Below are positions 1 to 12,979 of a DNA stretch of 64,000 nucleotides, piece after piece. Numbering within the stretch: the first letter of the stretch is position 1; each line of letters begins with the position of its first letter. The DNA is from Emcibacter sp. (GTDB taxonomy: Bacteria > Pseudomonadota > Alphaproteobacteria > Sphingomonadales > Emcibacteraceae), in NCBI GenBank assembly GCA_021741205.1, contig JAIOYI010000007.1, positions 62,001 to 126,000 on the forward strand, written 5' to 3'. Position numbers and translations under genes: made by a program. The notes under the pieces are model-generated. The model was not told the DNA's origin. It ran no database searches and was given only the letters and a program-made list of their open reading frames with translations.

Positions 1-368
1 CGTCTCTCTCACTTGATCCTCCGTCTTTATTGATCTGTGTTAATCAAGAAACGGGTCTGCACCGAGCCCTGACCTTAGGCCATGGCTATTGCGTCAACAT
101 TCTCTATTCTGATCAAAAGAATATTTCCGAGAATTGTGCATGGAAAGAAAAAGGGGAAAATCGGTTTAAAAGTGGCGATTGGCAAACAGATGAGAATAAT
201 ATTCCCTACCTTGCCAATGCACAGGCCTCTATTTTTTGTGATTTAGACGATAGCCATAGTTACGGCAGCCATTCCATATTCATAGGCAAGGTTAAAAAAG
301 TCATCGTCCGAGAAGATATTTCACCGCTCATGTTTCTCGCGGGGGACTATTTCTCAAAACCCCTATAA
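1..368 (+). CDS. Flavin reductase domain protein, 3' part
   Basis: C-terminal roughly 120 residues of a flavin-reductase-like FMN-binding protein; the 5' end lies before the window. The reading frame is open from base 3, and the residues before the first internal start (SLDPPSLLICVNQ) are the typical DPP-L-hydrophobic-CVN segment that ends the flavin-binding strand of this family. CVNIL follows about 20 residues later, and the protein ends at a GKV-type strand. Such proteins reduce FMN/FAD with NAD(P)H, often for a partner monooxygenase; no partner is visible here. The 3' end overlaps the convergent aminopeptidase gene by 6 bases. Family assignment is good; substrate is unknown. Confidence 0.75.
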   Translation, partial: SLSLDPPSLLICVNQETGLHRALTLGHGYCVNILYSDQKNISENCAWKEKGENRFKSGDWQTDENNIPYLANAQASIFCDLDDSHSYGSHSIFIGKVKKVIVREDISPLMFLAGDYFSKPL

Positions 369-2144
369 TGTCGTAATGGATTGGGTGGCATGGATAAGCC
401 AGTCCAGTTCTTTTCCCGAGAGGTAAGGTGATATTTTTTCCCTAACCTGCGCATGATATATATTGAACCATGTAATCTCTGCACTGCTCATCATATGGGC
501 ATTCACAAGCCGAGCATCTATGGGAACAAAGGTTATGGTTTCAAAGACATTCATCAAATAATCTTCTTCGTCATAATGACTGGGCTTTACGATCATCAAA
601 TTTTCGATACGAATTCCATAGGCATCCACCTTATAAAATCCAGGCTCATTGGAAACCACCATACCAGACAATAAGGGGACAGAAAATCCTTTGCTTGAAA
701 TAGACTGCGGACCTTCGTGTACCCCGAGATAACAGCCAACGCCATGACCCGTTCCATGGGCATAATCAAGGCCAATATCCCACAAAGATTTTCGAGCCAG
801 ACTGTCCAGATGTGCTCCTGTACGGCCCACAGGGAAACGTGCCTGAGCCAATGAAATATGGCCTTTCAGGACACGGGTAAAACGATCTTTTTGTTCTTCG
901 GTTGGCTTACCGATTGCTATGGTTCTGGTCAAATCTGTGGTACCGTCCAGATATTGCCCCCCTGAATCCAGAAGATACAGCATATTGCCTGTAATTTTAC
1001 GATTGGTTTTTGGGTTTGACCTATAATGCACCAACGCCGCATTGGGTCCCGCCGCCGATATGGTATCGAAACTCAACCCTTTGAAATGTTCTTGTTTCTT
1101 TCTAAATTCAAATAATTTATCGGAGGCCGATAGCTCATCAAGCTCACCAGAACCAACATTCTGAGAAAACCAGAAAAGAAATTTACACATAGCAACGCCG
1201 TCCCGTATATGGGCAGCACGTATACCATTCAACTCCACATCATTTTTGCACGCTTTAAGTAATTGGCAGGGATCATCCTTTTCCACAATTTCTGCACCCG
1301 CCATATCTAAGGCGTCCGTGACCACCACATGGGTAAGTTTTGGGTCCACCAGAATTCTTTTACCACCCTTGGCTATTTTTTTTAAGGACGATAAAAAATC
1401 CCCGTAAGGTTTGATTGTAATATCTTCCCCCAAATGATCTCGTACGATATCGGACAGTTTGTCCTGATCAACAAAAAATTCACCGACCCCCGTATTTTTT
1501 AAAATAACATAGCCAATAGCCAAAGGAGAATGTTCCACATCACCCCCTCTGATATTCAAAAGCCATGCAATACTATCCAGACCTGTCAACACCATAGCAT
1601 CAACTCTGTCAGCCTTTAGCGTGGCGGCAATGCGGGCTCGTTTATGGCTTGAGCGTTCACCAGAAAATTCCAGTTTTTGGGGAAAAATTTGACTCTTAGG
1701 GGCAGCGGGACGATCTATCCAGATGTTATCAATGGGGTTTTTTGGGATAGGCACCAATTCAATATCACGCCCCATGAGTGCTTTTGACAAATGATCAATC
1801 CACATTTTTGTATGGAGGGCAGGATCATACCCAATGCGGGATTTTTTCTGAAGATGAGACAAAAACCAATCTTCCAGCTTATCCTCGTGAAGACTTAAGG
1901 TTTCGTAATATTTAGTATCTACTTGCGTCTGCACCTGCAAAGTATAACGGCCATCCACATAGATTACTGCACGCTCTAGCGTGACCGCCGCAAGACCCGC
2001 AGAGCCACTAAATTCCGTAAGCCAAGCAAGCCTTCGTTCATTTAGAGGGGTATATTCACATTGATGAGCATCCGCATGGGGAATAATAAACCCATCCAGT
2101 TTTAATGTCCGCAAACTTTGCCGCAAGGCTAACAATCGGTTCAA
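363..2144 (-). CDS. pepP: Xaa-Pro aminopeptidase P (M24B)
   Basis: Cytoplasmic metallopeptidase that removes an N-terminal residue preceding proline. The 593 residues match the long, three-domain aminopeptidase P form: two creatinase-like N domains (about 1-135 and 150-300), the M24 catalytic domain (about 305-530) and a C-terminal cap. The five metal ligands are in place: D393 (LLDSGG), D404 (GTTDLT), H467 (HGTGHGVG), E500 (SNEPG) and E514 (RIENL). The start is a TTG at 2144, preceded by AGGA seven bases upstream; no better ATG lies nearby. It stands alone between a convergent flavin reductase and the biotin genes, so it is probably a general peptide-recycling enzyme. Confidence 0.93.
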   Translation of the reverse strand: MNRLLALRQSLRTLKLDGFIIPHADAHQCEYTPLNERRLAWLTEFSGSAGLAAVTLERAVIYVDGRYTLQVQTQVDTKYYETLSLHEDKLEDWFLSHLQKKSRIGYDPALHTKMWIDHLSKALMGRDIELVPIPKNPIDNIWIDRPAAPKSQIFPQKLEFSGERSSHKRARIAATLKADRVDAMVLTGLDSIAWLLNIRGGDVEHSPLAIGYVILKNTGVGEFFVDQDKLSDIVRDHLGEDITIKPYGDFLSSLKKIAKGGKRILVDPKLTHVVVTDALDMAGAEIVEKDDPCQLLKACKNDVELNGIRAAHIRDGVAMCKFLFWFSQNVGSGELDELSASDKLFEFRKKQEHFKGLSFDTISAAGPNAALVHYRSNPKTNRKITGNMLYLLDSGGQYLDGTTDLTRTIAIGKPTEEQKDRFTRVLKGHISLAQARFPVGRTGAHLDSLARKSLWDIGLDYAHGTGHGVGCYLGVHEGPQSISSKGFSVPLLSGMVVSNEPGFYKVDAYGIRIENLMIVKPSHYDEEDYLMNVFETITFVPIDARLVNAHMMSSAEITWFNIYHAQVREKISPYLSGKELDWLIHATQSITTL

Positions 2145-2169
2145 TTGCTTATCCTAATTTAGAATAATT

Positions 2170-3456
2170 CTAATAAGAATTATTTATGACTTTATCAATG
2201 GCCTCTGTCAATAGGGCTAAATGATTACTATCGATGGAAAATGACGGGGTAAGATAAATAATATCGCCAAAAGGTCTAATCCAGACACCGTTATCTGCAA
2301 ATTCTGCCCTAAGTTTTGCCACATCCTCAATGTTCTTCAATTGAATAACGCCGATAGCCCCCTTAACCCGCACATCTACCACACCGGGTAAATTCCGAAA
2401 TTGTTCAAAGGACTGATTAAGATGTCCCTCAATTTGTTTTACCCTCTCCAGTATAGGCTCGTCCCTAAAAATATCAAGAGATGCGTTTGCGGCCGCACAG
2501 GCCAAAGGATTGGCCATATAGGTTGGCCCATGCATGAAAGCCTTATCCGCATCATCCGATAGGAATGCGCCGTAAACTTTGTCAGTCGCCACCGTCGCCG
2601 CCATAGCAACCGTACCACCCGTCAGAGCCTTGCCGAGACAGATAATATCGGGTGTAACACCCGCCTGTTCACAAGCAAACATGGTGCCTGTCCTGCCAAA
2701 GCCCGTGAAAATTTCGTCCAATATCAAAAGCACATCATTTTTTTGACAGGCCTGCGCTATGGCTTTTAAGGTTTCTGGTTCATGAAATTTCATGCCGCCC
2801 GCTCCCTGTACCAAGGGCTCCATAATAACGGCTGCGATCTGATTTTTATGGCTTGCGAGAAAATCAGAAAATTCCGCTACTTCAGGCTCGGTAACGGGTA
2901 AGGGGCGTAAAAATTGTTGGCTCAAAAATCCGCTAAAGGCCTTATGCATGCCCTCCTCATTATCACCGCCCGAATTACTGACAGACATGGCGGCTGTGGT
3001 ATCTCCGTGATAGCCAGACTTAAAACAAACAAAGCGGTTATGTCCCTCTTCCCCAAGGTTCGTCCAATATTGCACCGCCATTTTCAGAGCAATTTCAACG
3101 GATACCGAGCCACTTTCAGAAAAGAAGACATGGTTAAGATCACCAGGCAAAAGATCCGAAAGTCGTTTGGCAAGCGTTGCTGCACCCTCATGAACAAGCC
3201 CACCAAGCATGATATGAGACATGTTTTTGACCTGAGCAATCATTTTTTCCTGCATGAGGGGATTGTTATAGCCGTGGCATGCCGTCCACCATGAGGCAAT
3301 ACCATCAATGAGCGTTCTGCCATCGGCAAGTTCAATCATCACCCCATCTGTTCCCACAACAGGCAAAGCATCCTCGGCCGTCTGCATCTGGGTATAGGGC
3401 AACCAAACATTGCCGTAGCCTTCTGTAAACCAGTCGGGTAATTTTTTATCCATCAT
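2170..3456 (-). CDS. bioA: Adenosylmethionine-8-amino-7-oxononanoate aminotransferase
   Basis: PLP-dependent class III aminotransferase that converts KAPA to DAPA using S-adenosylmethionine as amino donor, the third of the four late biotin steps. The 428 residues have the usual length. Family marks include WLPYTQM near residue 18, DGIASWW around 51, the PLP-contacting [14 protein letters not shown] at 244-257 and the Schiff-base lysine K276 in LGKALTGG. The start is ATGATG at 3456; the TGA stop of bioB lies within it (4-base ATGA overlap), so the two are translationally coupled. Transcribed with bioB from the divergent biotin promoter region. Confidence 0.96.
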
Positions 3457-4445
3457 TGACCTTCAGGGGTAATGCCGAGCCGCTTAAAGAGTTCCAGATC
3501 TTTATTCTGCAAGGGATTTGAGGTTGTCAAAAGTTTTTCCCCGTAAAAAATACTGTTGGCACCCGCTAGAAAACACATGGCCTGCATTTCATCATTCATG
3601 GCCTCCCGACCTGCGGACAGACGAACGTAAGAGGCGGGCATCAAAAGGCGGGCAACCGCAATGGTGCGAATGAAGTCAAAAGGATCCATCAGCGTCTCGC
3701 CATAAAGGGGGGTGCCTTCCACTTGTACCAACATATTGATAGGCACGCTGCCGGGATGGGTCGGCAGATTGGCGAGCGTTTGCAGCATACCTGCTCTGTC
3801 GGCCTTGCTTTCCCCCATACCAACGATGCCGCCGCTACAGACATTAATCCCCGCCGAGCGCACATGTTCAAGCGTATTCAGGCGATCCTCATAGGTGCGG
3901 GTTGTGATAATTTCTTTATAATATTCGGGGGAGCTATCCACATTATGATTATAATAATCAAGACCCGCCTGTTTTAAGGTTGCGGCCTGTTTCTCATCCA
4001 ACATGCCAAGGGTCATACAAGATTCGAGGCCCAAGTCCTTGACGCCCTTAATCATATCGCAGACTGCATCCATATCACGGCCCTTAGGACTGCGCCATGC
4101 GGCACCCATGCAATAGCGGGTGGCTCCATTTGCCTTGGCATTGCGCGCACCCTCTAGCACTTTTTCCACCGCCATTAATCGCTCTGCATCCACATCGGTT
4201 TGATAACGAGACGATTGCGGGCAATATTTACAATCTTCAGGACAGCCACCTGTTTTGATGCTGCACAGTTGAGATAGCTGGATTTTATTGGGATCAAAAT
4301 ATTTTCGGTGAATAGTTTGCGCCTGAAACAACAAATCCATCATCGGCAAATCAAAAAATTCCAATATTTCCCGTTTGGTCCAATTATGCCGAAAGCCGTC
4401 TGCATAAGGGTTATTCATAGCTATCTGCTCAGATATTACGGCCAT
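3453..4445 (-). CDS. bioB: Biotin synthase
   Basis: Radical-SAM enzyme that inserts sulfur into dethiobiotin, the last step of biotin synthesis. With the start chosen here it is 330 residues; C68, C72 and C75 of CPEDCKYC bind the 4Fe-4S cluster, and YNHNVD, GIVGMGE and RLSAGRE further on are BioB motifs. I chose the ATG at 4445 because GGAG sits five bases ahead of it. An in-frame ATG at 4484 exists, but it falls within the predicted promoter/operator and has no ribosome site. It heads the bioBA pair, divergent from bioFD. The intergenic palindrome over its -10 suggests repression. Confidence 0.96.
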
Positions 4446-4469
4446 ATACACTCCAATTCTAATAATTCC

Positions 4470-4482
4470 GACTAAATTAGTC
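4470..4482. promoter_or_regulatory. Perfect palindrome, candidate biotin operator
   Basis: GACTAAATTAGTC is a perfect 6-1-6 inverted repeat lying between bioB and bioF and covering the predicted bioB -10 (4479-4474). The position is that of a repressor site. It does not resemble the BioR consensus (TTATMKATAA) nor the long BirA operator, so the regulator is unknown. Confidence 0.5.
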
Positions 4483-4501
4483 ATCAGATTTTCAGAGTCA
4501 A
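4474..4501 (-). promoter_or_regulatory. Candidate bioBA promoter
   Basis: On the minus strand TTGACT (4501-4496) is followed after 16 bases by TAATTT (4479-4474). The start codon of bioB lies about 30 bases downstream of the -10. The -10 lies inside the 13-bp palindrome. Confidence 0.5.
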
Positions 4502-4517
4502 GTTTTTTGCTCTTTGA

Positions 4518-4546
4518 TTGACATATTGCCTACTATACCATAATGC
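4518..4546 (+). promoter_or_regulatory. Candidate bioFD promoter
   Basis: A perfect -35 TTGACA (4518-4523) is followed by TAATGC (4541-4546, 17-base spacer) or CATAAT (4539-4544, 15-base spacer). The bioF ATG at 4578 follows. This promoter lies inside the 5' end of the longest possible bioF reading frame, which argues that the upstream TTG is not the real start. Confidence 0.5.
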
Positions 4547-4577
4547 AAGACAAGCATATAATTTTCAGGATGAATTT

Positions 4578-5732
4578 ATGAAATCCCTTGAAACATTCGC
4601 CGAAAAAAAATTAACGACCCTTACTAACAAGGGGCTAAAGCGGGAAATAATCGTCACAGAACGGTTGGATAAGGCCATGATTGTGCGAAATGGCCGTCCG
4701 TTAATTTCCTTTTGCTGCAATGATTATTTAAATTTTAGTCATCATCCCAAAATCAAACAAGCCGCCATTGATGCCATTAACCAATTTGGCTCTGGCGCAG
4801 GTGCCTCACGTCTTATCACGGGCGATCACCCTTTGATCCGCACTTTGGAGCAAAGACTCGCAAAAATAAAAAATACCGATGATGCCTGCGTTTTTAGCTC
4901 TGGCTATATGGCCAATATTGGCATCATCCCGACCTTTATAGGTAAGCATGATGTTATTTTTCTGGACGAATTATGCCACGCATGTCTTATTGCAGGCAGC
5001 GAATTATCAGGCGGTCATAAAATATTCTTTCGCCATAATGATATGGATCATTTGCAAGACCTTATCCATAAGGAAAGACATCATTATAATAATGCCCTGA
5101 TCCTAACAGACGGTGTCTTTAGCATGGATGGGGATTTGGCCCCGCTTGATCAGTTAAGTGTGATTGCGAAAAATAATGATTGCTGGCTCATGAGCGATGA
5201 TGCCCATGGCTTAGGCGTTATTGGGGATGGCAAGGGAAGTCGGCATATGTTTGATCCTCTTCCTGATATTCCGCTACAAATGGGAACCTTATCAAAGGCA
5301 GTGGGAAGCTTTGGCGGTTATCTTTGCGCAAGTCATGCCGTCATCGCACTGATAAAAACCCGCGCCCGAAGCCTGATTTATACCACAGCCCTGCCACCAG
5401 CAAGCGTTGCCGCCGCCTTGGCCGCTCTCGATATTATCGAAACCGAACACGTCTATTGCAAACGCCCCCTTGAAAATGCCAAATATTTTGCAAGCCTTTT
5501 AGATTTACCCCTTCCCCAAAGCCCCATCATCCCGATTATAATAGGCGATACGAGCCAAACCATGATATATGCCAAGGCGTTAGAAAATGACGGTTTCCTT
5601 ATCACAGGAATCCGTCCGCCAACGGTCGCAGAAGGAACGGCACGATTGCGTTTTACCTTTACGGCTCTTCATAGAAAAGAGGATATTCAGGCCTTAAGCA
5701 AAGCCATCAAAAAACATGGAATTTTGCCATGA
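4578..5732 (+). CDS. bioF: 8-amino-7-oxononanoate synthase
   Basis: PLP enzyme of the alpha-oxoamine synthase family that condenses pimeloyl thioester with L-alanine to give KAPA, the first late biotin step. 384 residues, normal length. Visible marks: FCCNDYLN near 45-52, GAGASRLITG near 73-82, DDAHGLGV near 207-214 and the Schiff-base lysine K240 in GTLSKAVGS. I chose the ATG at 4578 (AGGA seven bases upstream); the longer frame begins at a TTG that coincides with the predicted -35 box. Its TGA overlaps the ATG of bioD by four bases, so the pair is coupled. Confidence 0.95.
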   Translation: MKSLETFAEKKLTTLTNKGLKREIIVTERLDKAMIVRNGRPLISFCCNDYLNFSHHPKIKQAAIDAINQFGSGAGASRLITGDHPLIRTLEQRLAKIKNTDDACVFSSGYMANIGIIPTFIGKHDVIFLDELCHACLIAGSELSGGHKIFFRHNDMDHLQDLIHKERHHYNNALILTDGVFSMDGDLAPLDQLSVIAKNNDCWLMSDDAHGLGVIGDGKGSRHMFDPLPDIPLQMGTLSKAVGSFGGYLCASHAVIALIKTRARSLIYTTALPPASVAAALAALDIIETEHVYCKRPLENAKYFASLLDLPLPQSPIIPIIIGDTSQTMIYAKALENDGFLITGIRPPTVAEGTARLRFTFTALHRKEDIQALSKAIKKHGILP

Positions 5733-6400
5733 CGGATATTATTTTTATCAGCGCCACCGGAACAGACATAGGCAAAACCTATGTCACCTGTCTCTTGCTC
5801 AAACAATTACGGGAAAAGGGCTATAAAGTTCGGGCACTCAAACCCGTCATCAGTGGTTTCGATGATAGCGCCCTTGATACAGCCGATAGCGGTCAGTTAC
5901 TAGCGGCGATGGGAATACCAATCACATTGGATAATATTAAGAAGATTTCGCCTTGGCGATTCAAAGAACCTTTGCCACCTCATCTGGCAGCAGAACGGTC
6001 TGGACGACCTCTAAATCTTGATGAAATTGTGGATTTTTGCCAAGCAGAGTTGGCTCAAGCTGAGGATAAGCCAGATTTTCTGCTCATAGAAGGCGCAGGC
6101 GGTATTATGGTTCCCCTGAATACAGAAACCACCCTTCTGGATTTGATGAACCGTCTTAACTGTTCCTGTCTTATGGTGAGCGGATCATATCTTGGCACCT
6201 TAAGTCATACATTGACGGCTCTATCCTGTCTAGAACAACGGAAAATTCCCGTTAAAGGCGTGGTTCTCTGTCAGTCCATACAAAGCTATACGGATTTTAC
6301 AGATGTTTTTGAAGATTTTGTAAAATTCATACCCCATACTCCCCTCAAAAAATTAGCCCGTGACGATCAAAGCAACCTTCTTGCCTTGCTCCTTGATTAA
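5729..6400 (+). CDS. bioD: Dethiobiotin synthetase
   Basis: ATP-dependent ligase closing the ureido ring of DAPA with CO2, third-to-last cofactor chemistry before BioB. The 223 residues start with the P-loop ATGTDIGKTYV (G11-T17, K16 binding ATP) and contain the second nucleotide/metal motif LLIEGAGGIMVPL near 119-131. The start ATG overlaps the bioF stop (ATGA). Together with bioA, B and F this completes KAPA-to-biotin; no bioC, bioH or bioZ gene for the pimeloyl precursor lies in the window. Confidence 0.95.
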   Translation: MTDIIFISATGTDIGKTYVTCLLLKQLREKGYKVRALKPVISGFDDSALDTADSGQLLAAMGIPITLDNIKKISPWRFKEPLPPHLAAERSGRPLNLDEIVDFCQAELAQAEDKPDFLLIEGAGGIMVPLNTETTLLDLMNRLNCSCLMVSGSYLGTLSHTLTALSCLEQRKIPVKGVVLCQSIQSYTDFTDVFEDFVKFIPHTPLKKLARDDQSNLLALLLD

Positions 6401-6559
6401 AATCGGCATTATCTTCCCGATGCGGTATATTCTGCCCTTCTTATCCTGCCCTTAAAAATAGAAATATTATTATATCCTTTATTTACAAAACGTTATCTTA
6501 TGGCGTGCCTTTTGCATAGCAAAATGAAAAATGTCTCAACAAAGCATAAGGATATAACC

Positions 6560-6853
6560 ATGAACCAAATGAACGAAATCTCTGCCCCTCGCCATAAGGT
6601 TTCTGATTATGAAAATTATTCCATTCTTGATCTCGTCTTTGAAATGCAATCTCTTGGTGTTGACCCAGATCCCCTGCTTAAGACCGCAGCCCATGACATA
6701 ATTTTAAAGCATGGGTCTAAAGTTGTTAGCTATACCGAAGGCATGCTCCATCAAATGATTATGGACAATAACCCAAATGGCATATATCTTTGGAAGAAGT
6801 TATCTGATATTGTGAATGATTATTATTTAAAAGAGCCCATTAGAATACATTAA
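6560..6853 (+). CDS. Small protein of unknown function
   Basis: 97 residues, starting at the ATG at 6560 that follows AAGGA with an eight-base spacer; an earlier in-frame start lacks such a site. The product is soluble-looking, mildly acidic, without signal peptide or membrane segment, and predicted mostly helical (segments around SILDLVFEMQSL and GMLHQMIMDN). I do not recognise a family. It is followed 60-150 bases later by a two-hairpin element ending in a terminator, so it may share its transcript with that structure. Confidence 0.6.
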   Translation: MNQMNEISAPRHKVSDYENYSILDLVFEMQSLGVDPDPLLKTAAHDIILKHGSKVVSYTEGMLHQMIMDNNPNGIYLWKKLSDIVNDYYLKEPIRIH

Positions 6854-6914
6854 AATTTATATTCTTTTTTTAGAAAATTAACTTTATATTAATCTCATAG
6901 GTTGTATTAATAAT

Positions 6915-7000
6915 GCGATCCCTTGAAAGGTCGCACCCTTGACCTTTCATCTGCCTGACTGCCTCGGTGATGGTGTATAACCTCATCGAGGTTTTTTTTA
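6915..7000 (+). ncRNA. Candidate small RNA or structured 3' UTR
   Basis: Two consecutive hairpins: TGAAAGGTC (6924-6932) pairs perfectly with GACCTTTCA (6941-6949) around the loop GCACCCTT, followed by a linker and an intrinsic terminator at 6962-7000. The layout (stem-loop with C-rich loop, linker, terminator hairpin, U tract) is common in bacterial sRNAs. A weak TATTAA lies at 6905-6910 but no convincing -35, so it may equally be the processed 3' end of the gene at 6560-6853. Confidence 0.35.
6962..7000 (+). terminator. Rho-independent terminator
   Basis: CCTCGGTGA (6962-6970) pairs with TCATCGAGG (6983-6991) with one G-U pair, extended inward by GG/CC across a bulged T, and is followed by eight T residues. 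It separates the + strand transcript from the convergent methyltransferase gene. Confidence 0.85.
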
Positions 7001-7007
7001 TTCCCTA

Positions 7008-7781
7008 TTATATTGTGTGGTAGTTGCGATGGGACATGAGATTTTGCAAACACGCCGTATTCTCACTATAAATAAGAATGAAATTTTCCAAATTTAACTG
7101 ATCATAATGATAATAGGGAATAAATTCAGAAGAAGCCCGTATATTGTTATTTTCCATAAAAAATACTTTGTAATTATTATCTTCTGCCCATTTAAATAAT
7201 TTATTTGTGGCATCTGGCAAATGTGTATTATTTGCTTCAATTAACATTGTTGGATGAAATTTTTTAATGGTATGAGACGCGCCTTCTAAAACAGATTGCT
7301 CATGCCCTTCCACATCAATTTTAATAAAACCAATATTTTCGATATTTAAATCGTCCAGTCTTATTGTCTGAATAGAAAACTCATCACATCCCTCAATCTT
7401 GTCAAATTCAAGATGATTATTTACTTCTATTGTCGATCTTCCATAACAAGGATTGCCGGATTTATACAAAGGCGTTCTCATGGAAAACTCGCCGGATTTC
7501 CCAGATAACGCAAACGGTATGATATCAACATTCTCTTTTTGAAATATAATAGACAGAGCGATATTAAGGTCTCTAATTGGTTCAAAAGCAATGACCTTTT
7601 TTGAATATCGTTTTAACCGAAACGTATACATTCCAAACTTTGCCCCCACATCCAAACTCGTTTTATTTGGACAACATAAAATATGTAAAAGTTCCATTTC
7701 AGATTCTTGATTAACAAAGGTCACTTTGCGAATAAAAAATAATATTCTAGGAAAAAATTTATAAAGAAATTTAATAAGCAT
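7008..7781 (-). CDS. FkbM-family methyltransferase
   Basis: SAM-dependent methyltransferase of the FkbM group, which O-methylate glycans and natural products; the actual substrate is unknown. Motifs: LDVGAKFGMYTF (SAM-binding glycine loop), IAFEP (acidic residue after strand 2), PFALSG, TIRLDDL and the C-terminal FIKIDVEGHE..VLEGA typical of the family. I chose the ATG at 7781 (257 residues, TTGGA upstream); the longer frame begins with a TTG without a ribosome site. It stands alone, is visibly richer in A+T than its neighbours, and has no glycosyltransferase beside it, which suggests acquisition by transfer. A 13-bp palindrome lies upstream. Confidence 0.85.
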   Translation of the reverse strand: MLIKFLYKFFPRILFFIRKVTFVNQESEMELLHILCCPNKTSLDVGAKFGMYTFRLKRYSKKVIAFEPIRDLNIALSIIFQKENVDIIPFALSGKSGEFSMRTPLYKSGNPCYGRSTIEVNNHLEFDKIEGCDEFSIQTIRLDDLNIENIGFIKIDVEGHEQSVLEGASHTIKKFHPTMLIEANNTHLPDATNKLFKWAEDNNYKVFFMENNNIRASSEFIPYYHYDQLNLENFILIYSENTACLQNLMSHRNYHTI

Positions 7782-7845
7782 TACATTTCCAATGAAAAAA
7801 TATTGAGGATGTAAGCTATAGCGCAAAATGATTAAGAGTAAACAA

Positions 7846-7858
7846 TGTAACTGTTACA
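7846..7858. promoter_or_regulatory. Perfect palindrome upstream of the methyltransferase
   Basis: TGTAACTGTTACA is a 6-1-6 inverted repeat 65 bases ahead of the methyltransferase ATG, and a further TGTTAC lies at 7869-7874. On the minus strand a weak TTGTTT/TACTCT pair flanks it. This could be an operator; the regulator is unknown. Confidence 0.35.
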
Positions 7859-7928
7859 AACAAAGAATGTTACGGTTATATAATTGACATATTAAAATGA
7901 AAATTTATAAGCGTCGAAAATAAAATAT

Positions 7929-8663
7929 TTATCCAATCTGGGCGAGCCAAGGCATAGCCTCAATCAAATAATAACCCAGATTTTGCAAAGAGCCTGTAAA
8001 GATGGCAAGTCCCGTTACGATTAAAAGCAGGCCGATAAGCCTTTCTATGGTTTGCATATATTTTCTTATACCACTTGAAACATTAAGAAAATGATTGATC
8101 GCAACGGAGGCAATCAAAAAAGGAATGCCAAGACCTGCTGAATAGGCCGCCAAAAGCATAACACCTTTTGAGAAATGTTCTTGCGTTGCCGCAAGGGTCA
8201 GGATCGTTGCCAATATAGGGCCAATACAGGGGGTCCAGCCAAAAGCAAAGGCAAGCCCTATGACATAAGCCCCCACAAGCCCCTTTTGTTCGTCACTGGT
8301 TTGAAAGCGGGCCTCTTTATAAAGAAAGGACAACTTAATTAATCCTGTGAAATGCAAACCGAGAATAATAATCATCACACCCGATATTTTGGCAAAAATT
8401 TCTTTATATTCCTGTAAGATTCCCTGAATAGAGGATGCGCCAGCACCCAGAGCAATAAATACCGTTGAAAAGCCAAGGACAAAGGCAACTGCAGGCCAGA
8501 ACATAGTCCATTTTTCGATTTTATCTCCCTCTTTAATATCCTGATAGCTGTTGCCGGTGATAAAACAGATATAGGCGGGAACAAGAGGAAGGACACAAGG
8601 GGACAAAAAACTAAACATTCCCCCCATAATGGCCACAAGATATGACATATCAATATTTTCCAT
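7929..8663 (-). CDS. ccdA: CcdA/DsbD-type thiol-disulfide membrane transporter
   Basis: Six-helix inner-membrane protein that carries reducing equivalents from cytoplasmic thioredoxin to periplasmic thiol proteins, for example for cytochrome c maturation. 244 residues, the usual CcdA length. The two redox cysteines are present: SPCVLP early in helix 1 (near residue 22) and GWTPCIGP in helix 4 (near 141). The start ATG at 8663 has GAGAG upstream. It is last in a row with the TSUP exporter and the TIGR02186 protein, 54 bases after the latter, so all three probably share a transcript. The periplasmic partner is not proven. Confidence 0.9.
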   Translation of the reverse strand: MENIDMSYLVAIMGGMFSFLSPCVLPLVPAYICFITGNSYQDIKEGDKIEKWTMFWPAVAFVLGFSTVFIALGAGASSIQGILQEYKEIFAKISGVMIIILGLHFTGLIKLSFLYKEARFQTSDEQKGLVGAYVIGLAFAFGWTPCIGPILATILTLAATQEHFSKGVMLLAAYSAGLGIPFLIASVAINHFLNVSSGIRKYMQTIERLIGLLLIVTGLAIFTGSLQNLGYYLIEAMPWLAQIG

Positions 8664-8717
8664 AAATCTCTCTTAACGCTATTGCGATGCCATAAGATAA
8701 AATTTTCATCACAAAAT

Positions 8718-9527
8718 TCATCCATTCACTTTCTTAGACAAAAAGCCCGCAAGCCAGCCCGCGAATAAAGCGATCACTATGGCCAATATGCCATAAAGTT
8801 TTGAATAATTATGGGCAAAAACATAAATTAATCTTTCTAGTCCAGCCTTATCAACCTCCAAAGGAGACTGTGCGGTTAAAATAATTTTACCGTTCCTAAT
8901 CAAATAAACATCTACGTCATAATTTCCCACGGGCATATTCGCCGGAAATTCCAAAATTGCCCGAAATAAAATCCCGTCCAGAATACTCACCATGCCTTCA
9001 TGTTGGTTATAAAGTTTTCGCGCTTTCATATTTCGAATGAAACCGTCCCGAAAATTCTCCTTTTCTTCCTCTGATATAGAATAATCAAATTCAATCTTTA
9101 GTTGTTGCAACCCAATATCCATTTTATTTAATTTTTTATCGGAAAGGATTAGGTCAATAGGCCTAGTGGACGTCAGAGCATAAAAACCTGGCATATTCTT
9201 TAAAATCTTATTTTCTTTATTGACCCAAATAGGACCCAAGGGTTCCTTGCGCCGAATGATCATGTCATGTCGTTCGCTCTGCACAACAACAATGATATCG
9301 TAATCCATACCCTCAACAACCACACCGTGACCGCCGTCATCTTGCGGAATGCCGCGCTCTATTGCCCCAAATATTAAAAGTTCCGTGCCAGAAAATCGAG
9401 ACGTAATTTCTATGGTATGATCGGACAAATCCGTAACCATATTTTCTGCAAAACCTCTTTGTACAAAAAGCAAACTACAAAAAAAGCCTAATAATAAGCC
9501 TGTGATATGATAAATAATCTGGCTCAA
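8718..9527 (-). CDS. TIGR02186 (Alph_Pro_TM) membrane protein
   Basis: Conserved alphaproteobacterial protein of unknown function. The 269 residues have an N-terminal signal peptide (about 1-27, cut near GFAEN), a periplasmic domain of about 210 residues, and one C-terminal membrane helix (about 240-262) ending in KKVNG, so it is anchored with the bulk outside. The start is TTG at 9527 with a GGGGGGG run just upstream, overlapping the TGA of the TSUP gene by four bases; translation is coupled. In this family the neighbour is typically a TauE/SafE exporter, as here, which suggests a joint role in export or handling of a sulfur anion; that is inference. Confidence 0.85.
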   Translation of the reverse strand: MSQIIYHITGLLLGFFCSLLFVQRGFAENMVTDLSDHTIEITSRFSGTELLIFGAIERGIPQDDGGHGVVVEGMDYDIIVVVQSERHDMIIRRKEPLGPIWVNKENKILKNMPGFYALTSTRPIDLILSDKKLNKMDIGLQQLKIEFDYSISEEEKENFRDGFIRNMKARKLYNQHEGMVSILDGILFRAILEFPANMPVGNYDVDVYLIRNGKIILTAQSPLEVDKAGLERLIYVFAHNYSKLYGILAIVIALFAGWLAGFLSKKVNG

Positions 9528-10447
9528 TGAATCCCCCCCACAGACACAACAGAATAAAGTTCATCAGGCTCAACCGCCAAATCAAATCCCATTTTAGCAC
9601 ATACAGCCAGAACCATAAGTGCCAGCAATATTCTAAGTTGCTCTCCTTTTAACTTTTGCCCAACTTTCGCTCCGAATTGAGCGCCGATTACGGAACTGAC
9701 CAGTAAGATCAAGGCCAGCATAATATCAACAGTTTGCGTGTGAACAGAATGAAGATAAGTCACACTGGCCGTGACAAAAGTAATCTGGAAAAGCGATGTT
9801 CCGATAACCACATTGATCGGCATATTCAAAAGATATATCATGGCGGGTACCATAATAAAACCGCCCCCAACGCCCATAATGGCGGCAAGCACCCCCACCA
9901 AACCACCAATCGAAAGCGGCAATACAGCACTGACATACATTTTAGAGGCACGAAACCGCATTTTAAAAGGCAAGGCATCCACCCACGTTCTTTGCCTGCG
10001 ACCCACTTTTACTTTCTCACCACGGCGGTTACGTAATATACTGCGCACACTCTCAACAAACATCATACCACCGATAGAACCCAAAAATATCACATAAGCT
10101 AGTGATATCATGAGATCAACCTGACCTGTGGCCTTCAAAATGGTAAATATCATGGATCCGAAATATGAGCCGACAGCCCCCCCTAAAATCAAAACAATAC
10201 CCATTTTGTAATCAATGCCCCCACGTCTTGCATGGGCAATGGCACCAGAAACAGAGGCTGCGGTGATTTGGTTTGCAACCGTCGCCACAGAAACGGCAGG
10301 CGGGATACCAATAAAAATCAACAGAGGTGTCATCAAAAATCCACCGCCAACACCAAACATGCCGCACAAAAACCCAACCCCGCCGCCCATAAAAAAGAGC
10401 AGAAAAATATTTATCGAAACTTCGGCAATAGGCAGGTAAATCTGCAT
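9524..10447 (-). CDS. TSUP-family (TauE/SafE) anion exporter
   Basis: Inner-membrane permease of the TauE/SafE family, which export sulfite, sulfoacetate or related anions. 307 residues with two related halves, each opening with a glycine-rich helix: GGGVGFLCGMFGVGGGFLMT (about 20-40) and GVLAAIMGVGGGFIMVP (about 184-200), the internal repeat expected of TSUP proteins. About eight membrane helices; a basic loop (RNRRGEKVKVGRRQR) separates the halves. First of three co-directional genes with TIGR02186 and CcdA. Substrate cannot be read from sequence. The ribosome site before the ATG at 10447 is weak. Confidence 0.88.
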   Translation of the reverse strand: MQIYLPIAEVSINIFLLFFMGGGVGFLCGMFGVGGGFLMTPLLIFIGIPPAVSVATVANQITAASVSGAIAHARRGGIDYKMGIVLILGGAVGSYFGSMIFTILKATGQVDLMISLAYVIFLGSIGGMMFVESVRSILRNRRGEKVKVGRRQRTWVDALPFKMRFRASKMYVSAVLPLSIGGLVGVLAAIMGVGGGFIMVPAMIYLLNMPINVVIGTSLFQITFVTASVTYLHSVHTQTVDIMLALILLVSSVIGAQFGAKVGQKLKGEQLRILLALMVLAVCAKMGFDLAVEPDELYSVVSVGGIH

Positions 10448-10640
10448 GACGGTAATTCTTTAATTTTCAATTTAATAGGATACTGAAAGAAGCCTTTTCT
10501 GGCCTTTTCATTATTGGGGGCATACCCTCTCTAAATCCTAAACAAATTTAACTTTTAATGATACTATTTTCTGAAGGCTGACCTTATATTTTACGCAATA
10601 ATTAAATTTTATGTATTTTTCAATGAATTTTTATTTTAAG

Positions 10641-10669
10641 TTGACCTTTACGTAAAGGTAAGCTATAAT
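10641..10669 (+). promoter_or_regulatory. MerR-type promoter with palindromic operator
   Basis: TTGACC (10641-10646) and a perfect TATAAT (10664-10669) are separated by 17 bases. The spacer carries the perfect 16-bp palindrome ACCTTTACGTAAAGGT (10644-10659). A palindrome sitting between -35 and -10 is the hallmark of MerR-family control, and the next gene is a MerR regulator, so autoregulation of the whole operon is likely. The rest of the divergent gap (10448-10772) is AT-rich with no further feature that I can support. Confidence 0.8.
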
Positions 10670-10772
10670 AGCACCTGCAATTCCGACGCCCTATTATCAA
10701 CCTATTGTTCAAACTTGTTATAATAATTTGCAGAAAAAATTTCAGTCTACCTTATGTAAAGTCTGGAAAAAG

Positions 10773-11171
10773 ATGACCAAAAATACTTACACTATTTCTG
10801 AACTTTCCGAAGAATTTGGCATTACGCCACGAACATTGCGTTATTACGAGGATCAGAAACTTATTTTCCCTACTAGACGTGGGCAATCTAGATTATATTC
10901 CAAAAAAGATCGTGCAAGACTGGCTTGGATATTGCGCGGTAAAAGGGTTGGCTTTTCCATTGCTGATATGGGAAAATTTTTGAACCTCTATGACATAGAG
11001 GACGGCAAAAGCATACAACGCGAACTTGGCATACAAAATTGCCAAGAAAGAATCAGAGTTTTAGAACAACAAAAAAATGATATTGATGAAACAATCTCTG
11101 AACTTAAAGATATTATTGAAATGTTTAAACATTGGAACCAAAACTCCAATAACAGAAAAGCAAGAGTTTAA
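10773..11171 (+). CDS. MerR-family regulator of the fatty-acid/branched-chain acyl operon
   Basis: 132-residue MerR-type activator/repressor. The winged helix-turn-helix is at the N terminus (YTISELSEEFGITPRTLRYYE), followed by the RRGQSRLYS wing and a C-terminal coiled coil (about 90-120) for dimerisation; there is no cysteine-based metal site. I chose the ATG at 10773 (GGAAAAAG upstream); the longer frame starts at a TTG. It is the first gene of an operon with an acyl-CoA dehydrogenase, a thiolase and a FadJ-like protein, so it probably senses an acyl-CoA. It resembles LiuR-type regulators of acyl-CoA catabolism in arrangement; the exact ligand is unknown. Confidence 0.85.
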   Translation: MTKNTYTISELSEEFGITPRTLRYYEDQKLIFPTRRGQSRLYSKKDRARLAWILRGKRVGFSIADMGKFLNLYDIEDGKSIQRELGIQNCQERIRVLEQQKNDIDETISELKDIIEMFKHWNQNSNNRKARV

Positions 11172-11188
11172 CTCAGGAGACATTAATT

Positions 11189-12979
11189 ATGCCCACTTAT
11201 TCAGCCCCTATTAAAGACATTCAGTTTTTGTTGCATGATTATTTTAACTTACAAAAATATAATAATATTCAATCCTTCAAAGAGGCAACCCCTGAACTGA
11301 TTGATGCCATTCTAGAAGAAGCCGCAAAAATCAGCGAAAACGTCTTCCAGCCTTTAAATCTTCCTGCGGATACCCAAGGATGCCGTCTTGAAAATGGCAA
11401 GGTTATCACGCCCGATGGTTTTAAAGATGCCTACCAACAATATCTCGAAGGCGGCTGGCAAGGAATGACGGGTGACGAAAAATACGGTGGTCAAGGCCTG
11501 CCGCAAACTTTGGGGCTGGTGCTCAATGAAATTATGGTATCGGCCAACTGGGGATTTGCCATGTATCCTGGTTTGACAAAAGGAGCCACAGAATCCATTT
11601 ATGCTTGGGGTACGGATGAACAAAAACAGAAATATCTACCCAAGATGTTTTCTGCTGAATGGTCTGGCACCATGAATTTGACTGAGCCCCACTGCGGTAC
11701 TGATCTTGGGCTATTGCGCACCAAGGCCGAACCACAGACGGACGGTAGCTATAAGATTACGGGCACAAAAATATTCATCTCGGCTGGCGATCATGATCTG
11801 ACGGAAAATATCATTCACCTTGTCCTTGCCCGTATCACAGGTGCCCCCGAAGGAGTTAAAGGCATCAGTCTATTCATTGTACCCCGTAACACAATCAATG
11901 ACGATGGTACGGTCGGTGACAATAACGGTGTATCTTGTGGATCGCTCGAAGAAAAAATGGGCATTCATTCCAATGCAACCTGTGTCATGAATTTTGATGC
12001 GGCCACGGGCTATCTTCTGGGCGAAGAACATAAGGGTATGAAGGCCATGTTCACCATGATGAACGAGGCTCGCCTTGGTGTTGCCATTCAGGGCTTGGCC
12101 ATTGCAGAGGTTGCCCAACAAAATGCAGTCATCTATGCCAATGACCGTATTCAGGGACGCGCTCTCACTGGCCCACAAAACAAAGACGCCAAAGCAGATC
12201 CCATCATGGTTCATCCTGATGTGCGCCGCATGCTCATGACCAACCGTGCCTTTGTTGAAGGGGCTCGTGCCATGGCGGTTTGGGCGGGCATACTTGTGGA
12301 TACCACAAGGAGCCATTCCGATGAAAAGGAACGTGTCAAGGCCGAAGAACTTTTAGCGCTTCTTACGCCCGTTTTAAAATCCTATTTCACTGACCAAGGT
12401 GTAGAAGCTGCAAGCCGTGCTCTTCAATGTTTTGGTGGACATGGCTATATCCATGAATGGGGTATGGAGCAATTTCTGCGAGACAGTCGTATTGCCCCCA
12501 TTTATGAGGGCACAAACGGGGTTCAGGCCATGGATTTGATTGGCCGCAAGTTACCCGCCAATGGCGGCTCTGCGGTTCGAGCCTATTTTGACCTGATCCA
12601 GACCTTCATCAATGACAACAAAACCAACGAAGGCCTTGCAGGCTATATGCCCCATCTGGAAAAGGCCTTGGGACGATTACAGGCCTCTACCATGTGGTTG
12701 ATGCAAAATGGTATGTCCAATCCCAATAATGCGGGATCTGCCGCCCATTATTATCTGAATTTAATGGCCTTGGTGACCTTGGCCTATTTCTGGGCCGATA
12801 TGGCTAAAAAAGCGCAAGAGATGATAGCCTCTGGTGAGGGCAATAAAGAGTTTCTGAATAATAAAATTATCACAGCCAACTTTTTTTACAGCCATATATT
12901 ACCCGAAACATCTTCCTTAAAAGTTAAAATTGAAGCGGGCTCCGAAAGCGTTATGGCGCTTGATGCCCAATCATTCTAA
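11189..12979 (+). CDS. Acyl-CoA dehydrogenase, long form with C-terminal extra domain
   Basis: FAD enzyme that introduces the alpha-beta double bond in acyl-CoA, first step of beta-oxidation. The 596 residues exceed the classical 380-400 because of a C-terminal helical extension (about 470-596) seen in the bacterial long forms. Marks: MNLTEPHCGTDLG near 162-174, IFISAGDHDL near 195-204, CFGGHGYIHE near 414-423 and the catalytic base E440 in IAPIYEGTNGVQ. AGGAGA precedes the ATG at 11189; it lies 17 bases after the MerR gene. Electrons would go to ETF, which is not encoded here. Chain-length preference is not readable. Confidence 0.93.
   Translation: MPTYSAPIKDIQFLLHDYFNLQKYNNIQSFKEATPELIDAILEEAAKISENVFQPLNLPADTQGCRLENGKVITPDGFKDAYQQYLEGGWQGMTGDEKYGGQGLPQTLGLVLNEIMVSANWGFAMYPGLTKGATESIYAWGTDEQKQKYLPKMFSAEWSGTMNLTEPHCGTDLGLLRTKAEPQTDGSYKITGTKIFISAGDHDLTENIIHLVLARITGAPEGVKGISLFIVPRNTINDDGTVGDNNGVSCGSLEEKMGIHSNATCVMNFDAATGYLLGEEHKGMKAMFTMMNEARLGVAIQGLAIAEVAQQNAVIYANDRIQGRALTGPQNKDAKADPIMVHPDVRRMLMTNRAFVEGARAMAVWAGILVDTTRSHSDEKERVKAEELLALLTPVLKSYFTDQGVEAASRALQCFGGHGYIHEWGMEQFLRDSRIAPIYEGTNGVQAMDLIGRKLPANGGSAVRAYFDLIQTFINDNKTNEGLAGYMPHLEKALGRLQASTMWLMQNGMSNPNNAGSAAHYYLNLMALVTLAYFWADMAKKAQEMIASGEGNKEFLNNKIITANFFYSHILPETSSLKVKIEAGSESVMALDAQSF

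Follow-up and report, generated by a model that had tools for sequence, protein, structure and literature searches.

How are the two divergent biotin operons of this Emcibacter genome, bioBA and bioFD, controlled, and which regulator reads the gap between them? In outline, one account describes the BirA of alphaproteobacteria as a protein whose DNA-binding domain has been lost, and assigns BioR, a member of the GntR family, to Rhizobiales and Rhodobacterales, a placement that a second source also gives (PMC5343134, PMC4554459). As far as the first of these accounts extends, biotin control looks open in alphaproteobacteria beyond those two orders (PMC5343134), and a search of the literature by title and abstract returned no report on biotin control in the present lineage. 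Repressors of bio genes other than BirA are outlined elsewhere, namely BioQ, a TetR protein of actinomycetes (PMC11089781), and BioL, a MocR protein of Elizabethkingia that represses both bioEFD and bioBA (PMC12915131). A preliminary description of the window, by which we mean the whole 64,000-nucleotide stretch of DNA analyzed here, had proposed that the interval 4470-4501 holds a palindromic operator covering the -10 box of bioB, that this palindrome fits neither a BioR box nor a BirA operator, and that biotin repression may use another regulator in this lineage. Our analysis suggests a different site, a conserved block beside the palindrome, while keeping the idea of another regulator.

Table 1. 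Features of the bioBA/bioFD locus, in window coordinates.
Feature	Position	Strand	Basis or remark
bioA	2170..3456	-	Open reading frame; name from reading the sequence; beside bioB in relatives (tblastn)
bioB, biotin synthase	3453..4445	-	TIGR00433, E 8.3e-124; Radical_SAM and BATS domains
Palindrome GACTAAATTAGTC	4470..4482	.	Apparently incidental; overlaps the likely bioB -10; unconserved in 13/13 relatives
Likely bioBA -10 box TAATTT	4474..4479	-	Predicted; 16 bp from the -35; unlisted by consensus scan
Conserved 30-bp block TGTCAATCAAAGAGCAAAAAACTTGACTCT	4494..4523	-	Candidate operator common to both promoters
bioBA -35 box TTGACT	4496..4501	-	Predicted; read from sequence
bioFD -35 box TTGACA	4518..4523	+	Predicted; invariant TGTCAA on the other strand, 14 genomes
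Likely bioFD -10 box TAATGC	4541..4546	+	Predicted; spaced 17 bp from the -35; several relatives have similar letters (by eye)
bioF	4578..5732	+	Open reading frame; Aminotran_1_2 domain; divergent from bioB in 14 same-genus loci reaching it
bioD	5729..6400	+	Open reading frame; name from reading the sequence; tblastn conservation

The divergent arrangement of bioBA and bioFD was correctly described. Its comparison across the genus draws on 16 genomes, the window's own included, in 14 of which the bioB/bioF gap is readable; of the other two, G009 gives no bioB match above the cut-off, and in G014 the bioB start coincides with a contig end. The bioB gene probably starts at 4445, a position preferred over 4418 and 4484 because a GGAG just 5' of it is kept in 14/14 genomes and the ATG itself in 12/14 (it is ATC in G006 and G012). 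A search for a riboswitch near the bio genes gave no Rfam match at gathering scores within positions 1-12000.

The perfect 6-1-6 symmetry of GACTAAATTAGTC is indeed present within the gap, and the interval first singled out encloses it, together with eight bases of the conserved block. The claim that it covers the bioB -10 box holds insofar as it overlaps the TAATTT that we favor, but that box was picked by eye. As a repressor operator, however, the palindrome was rejected. Perfect 6-1-6 palindromes number 40 in the window, and of 5000 dinucleotide shuffles of the gap (4419-4577, 159 bp) a fraction of 0.055 contain at least one. Genome-wide (2,568,931 bases in 18 contigs), its pattern was found with up to 2 mismatches at 45 places, one of them exact, none with 1 mismatch and 44 with 2, against 142 places for a reversed control pattern. 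All 13 relatives in the genus that share the divergent arrangement lack it: at the homologous place they retain between 0 and 3 of the 6 arm pairs, and several have CTAATTTTA or similar letters there, a -10 box without the symmetry. Since such palindromes are common, and this one has no near copies in the genome and is absent in relatives, we do not regard it as an operator; it looks like a chance feature of one genome, formed around the AT-rich bioB -10. The preliminary description had itself proposed a search for further genomic copies and a comparison of relatives with the same gene order, and both speak against its repressor site. The symmetry over a likely -10 box could still be read as a genuine operator newly gained by this one species, but for a palindrome of a common kind, with a sole exact copy in its genome and no counterpart in any relative, we consider this extremely improbable. 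Other palindromes occur in the bio gaps of the genus: a different perfect one, AATTCAGTGAATT, is found in G001 (L036), G008 (L034), G011 (L047) and G015 (L025), nearer the bioB start and shortly 5' of the bioB ribosome-binding site, and ATTTTGACAAAAT is found in G004, neither of them being genus-wide.

Eleven bases away from the palindrome lies the 30-bp block TGTCAATCAAAGAGCAAAAAACTTGACTCT, in which 29 of 30 columns are invariant across the 14 genomes, the sole exception being an A to T change in G008 and G011. It ranks first among the 30-column windows of the gap alignment, which has 41 invariant columns among 225 and varies in much of the remainder. In the aligned bioB genes of the same 14 genomes, 3/97 fourfold columns are invariant, invariant DNA runs reach at most 8 columns out of 978, and 23 invariant columns are the most that any 30-column window holds, compared with 29 in the block (an unaligned codon comparison of bioB in 13 genomes gave 2/95, in place of which the aligned figures are used). 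In a search of 33 genomes that allowed up to 3 mismatches, the 26-bp core of the block occurs exactly once, beside bioB, in 14 of the 16 same-genus genomes, all but G009 and G014, and in none of the 19 other genomes. A looser search with a 17-bp core and up to 3 mismatches gave 39, 21, 26 and 33 matches in G000, G010, G013 and G012, against 19, 16, 10 and 25 for its reversed control; by these counts, further block sites may or may not exist. The three near-copies of the core that we inspected, each 1 or 2 mismatches away from it (L179, L192 and L182), were set aside, as all of them lie inside open frames. Two other readings of the block were likewise rejected: a short reading frame (ATG TCA ATC AAA GAG CAA AAA ACT TGA), whose ATG is CTG in some relatives and whose synonymous positions are invariant, and an IHF-like site, of which only the WATCAA half fits the consensus by eye.

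What the block contains bears on what might read it. It is not a clean palindrome and carries TTGAC cores on both strands, so placed that the predicted bioB -35 box on the minus strand and the predicted bioF -35 box on the plus strand stand back to back with 16 bp between them, an A6 tract adjoining the former. The promoter boxes were chosen by eye: the TTGACT/TAATTT pair for bioBA matches 8 of 12 consensus letters, and the consensus scan lists neither this pair nor the one proposed for bioFD, giving for bioB a pair further down, ATGACT-17-TAGAAT (4484-4456), at a rate of 1 found versus 1.2 in shuffles. CTTGACT or a near form also precedes bioB in other families of the order (by eye), and in several such genomes outside the genus a poor -10, GANNNT within GGGGAANGTGCGGC-like letters, follows about 17 bp after it (by eye). 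A GACTC overlapping the bioB -35 near the block end (4495-4499) is present in 14/14 genomes and matches GANTC, the CcrM methylation motif.

Part of the conservation of the block is due to the two -35 boxes and to the A-tract, possibly an UP element. An explanation that goes no further would treat the block as a constrained double promoter, with two -35 boxes, α-subunit contacts at the UP element, a fixed distance and mutually exclusive polymerases, and without any regulator. The paired TTGAC cores and the A6 tract fit such a promoter, as do six genomes of other families (G035, G047, G060, G068, G090 and G094) in which GTCAA and TTGAC lie 13 to 15 bp apart by eye without a common spacer; in further genomes of other families the two cores are, by eye, farther apart. 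Within the genus, however, the spacer, its GAGC included, is invariant to the same degree as the -35 boxes, which makes RNA polymerase alone a poor explanation, and both proposed -10 boxes vary across the 14-genome gap alignment, whereas contacts with polymerase should constrain the -10 boxes no less. We therefore regard a double promoter without a regulator as unlikely. An invariant spacer between variable -10 boxes argues instead for a protein that reads the spacer, and with the -35 boxes back to back two polymerases could hardly bind together, while one protein would cover both boxes.

Our preferred reading, which we consider probable on the strength of these comparisons, is that the block is the control element of the divergent promoter and that a single protein represses bioBA and bioFD together. 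One DNA-binding protein would sit on the block and cover both -35 boxes, and the covered boxes would leave the two operons repressed jointly. Here we infer not only the promoter boxes but also protein binding, repression as opposed to activation, and a response to biotin. In E. coli, the divergent bioA and bioBFCD operons share one operator, bioO, bound by BirA. The present locus would be akin to that system in having divergent biotin operons whose promoters overlap, with space for a single shared operator, but another protein and another sequence would be involved.

That the protein differs from BirA is suggested by the ligase itself. The genome has one match to the BirA ligase, a protein of 254 residues that begins just after a gene read as nuoN, and in it we found no helix-turn-helix or other DNA-binding domain, Pfam giving ligase domains only. 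The E. coli-type operator has the form TTGTnAACC-N14-17-GGTTnACAA; within 4419-4577 its best match falls on the block with 10/16 letters, a figure that has no shuffle control beside it. BirA is thus probably not the regulator of the gap.

BioR, whose box has the form TTATNNATAA, fares similarly. No such box lies within 4419-4577, where the best match has 6/8 letters, and the BioR box was rejected there; the window as a whole holds 3 against 2.66 expected. The preliminary description was thus right, by the consensus sequences, that the palindrome is neither a BioR box nor a BirA operator. As a BioR-like query we used the GntR protein beside the bio operon of Paracoccus ferrooxidans, which is taken as BioR by its position and whose own locus lacks an exact TTATNNATAA but has two imperfect boxes by eye. 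GntR/FCD proteins matching this position-defined query occur in 28/33 genomes, the best in the window's genome at 27% identity (E 1.9e-14) and stronger ones in relatives, at 37% in G013 (E 5.2e-29) and 34% in G016, G017 and G010. The five genomes without a match to it include two carriers of the block, G008 (95% complete) and G011 (88%). The locus therefore resembles BioR systems in belonging to an alphaproteobacterium, in having a BirA without a DNA-binding domain and in having biotin genes as targets, and differs from them in the lack of a BioR box in the gap and of a convincing BioR orthologue in the window's genome. BioR is probably not the regulator of the gap either, though the stronger matches in some relatives and a query defined by position alone speak against that conclusion. 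A repressor of BioR or BirA type could in principle act on the gap through a site of unrecognized form, as the existence of GntR/FCD proteins and the position of the best BirA-like match would allow; with block carriers that lack any match to the BioR-like query, a ligase in which no helix-turn-helix was found and no TTATNNATAA in the gap, we give this almost no credence.

The block is, in our view, a strong candidate operator of a putative regulator other than BirA or BioR, and it is likely that such a regulator acts on it. To this extent the preliminary description gains support, from the BirA without a helix-turn-helix, the weak GntR/FCD matches and the near-invariant element; the site that it assigned to the regulator does not. 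Six genomes were also searched for other biotin genes: BioY was found in none, and BioC was above the cut-off in none while giving matches below it in all six, a cut-off that only 1 of 14 control genomes exceeds. The biotin regulator may for this reason have the block as its single target. Its near-invariance would make the block useful as bait, so that the regulator might be found by affinity capture.

A TetR protein, P0002, enters the account through other genera of the family. It matches the domains TetR_N and TetR_C_24, like the TetR regulators of fatty-acid genes (the Bacillus-type FadR, NF053878, and TetR_C_24 proteins); NF053878 is also its best NCBIfam match, far under the cut-off at 55 of 200 bits. 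Queried with its first 70 residues, it is found in 19/21 genomes of the family and, weakly, in 1/12 others. Unlike those FadR-type regulators, it has its presumed motif, GTTACTCNNGAGTAAC, at genes that we read as pccB, methylmalonyl-CoA mutase, tetR/thiolase and enoyl-CoA hydratase (the last in G016), as well as at bio genes in two sister genera (loci L228 and L224 (G000:C16), L208 (G000:C2), L205, L209 and L213 (G016), and L207 and L211 (G017)). Of these genes, the G000 mutase is above its NCBIfam cut-off and the thiolase passes that of the general family TIGR01930, whereas the best match of pccB is mmdA, below the cut-off, and the hydratase was named by reading.

Before pccB, the motif stands in all 17 family loci read, with 11 to 13 of 14 letters (18 were fetched and G002 was left out). 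Outside the family 12 loci were fetched and 11 read, and all of these lack it, matching 7 to 9 of 14. Before tetR it stands in all 14 loci read within the genus, at 11 or 12 of 12 letters, and the four loci read from other family genera have 9 or 10 of 12, making 18 of 21 loci read in all; in the four tetR loci inspected for it (G000, G010, G012 and G016), a thiolase gene lies opposite. As regulator and motif share the same range, the TetR is likely the reader of the motif.

Does this TetR also control the biotin genes? In the sister genera, TTACTCGCGAGTAA (G016) and TTACCGGCGAGTAA (G017) lie in the bio gap between the two -35 boxes, and TTACTCNNGAGTAA has three exact copies in G016, before the enoyl-CoA hydratase gene, the methylmalonyl-CoA mutase gene and bioF/bioB. 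A profile of 28 sites, all outside the bio genes, scores the gaps of G016 and G017 at 23.9 and 19.7, and gives weaker scores to those of G004 (13.4), G018 (12.5) and G005, G007 and G010 (11.3 each); scores of 11 to 13 are weak, since chance scores in the window reach 14.5. The window's own gap lacks the motif, with a best score of -4.2, nine other same-genus gaps score -2.0 or less, and at the second bioB of G016 no site is seen (0.3). By these scores, the TetR regulon seems to take in the biotin genes of two sister genera but not those of the window's genome, with five more genomes as possible cases. One could have the family's TetR control the bio operons throughout, the window's genome using a degenerate version of the site, and the weak same-genus sites do overlap the TTGACTCT end of the block; but a TetR half-site leaves the remainder of the block unexplained, and with the scores of the window's gap, of the nine others and of the second bioB of G016 we find this very unlikely.

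The gap as a whole appears, from these sequence comparisons, to have changed regulators within the family. A fuller version, plausible to us but held tentatively and with slightly more doubt than confidence, is that in the genus a biotin regulator other than BirA, BioR, BioQ or BioL acts through the single 30-bp operator, and that in the sister genera the gap was handed to the TetR of propionyl-CoA carboxylase and methylmalonyl-CoA mutase, a regulatory replacement at one promoter. BioQ and BioL would have in common with such a regulator the repression of bio genes by a protein other than BirA, and are set apart from it by phylum, both having been described in other phyla. With a TetR motif at their bio genes, the sister genera would have cofactor supply coupled to a catabolic pathway that depends on biotin, and, if the reading is true, biotin synthesis there would be tied to the demand for a biotin enzyme.

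Because the bioB protein tree (15 rows, G005 and G018 left out) leaves the genus largely unresolved, we make no clade claim for those four of its genomes that show a weak TetR site. The family also varies in its possession of bioB: none of the 13 genomes of genus g5 (G019-G031) has it above the family cut-off, nor does G009, and these may be biotin auxotrophs, the gene being otherwise present in the family. G016 has two copies of bioB, on contigs C7 and C15 (L021 and L049), equally identical to the query, each followed by a bioA that a contig end truncates at the same residue, which would fit either a recent duplication or an assembly effect. The copy on C15 alone faces bioF and carries the TetR motif.
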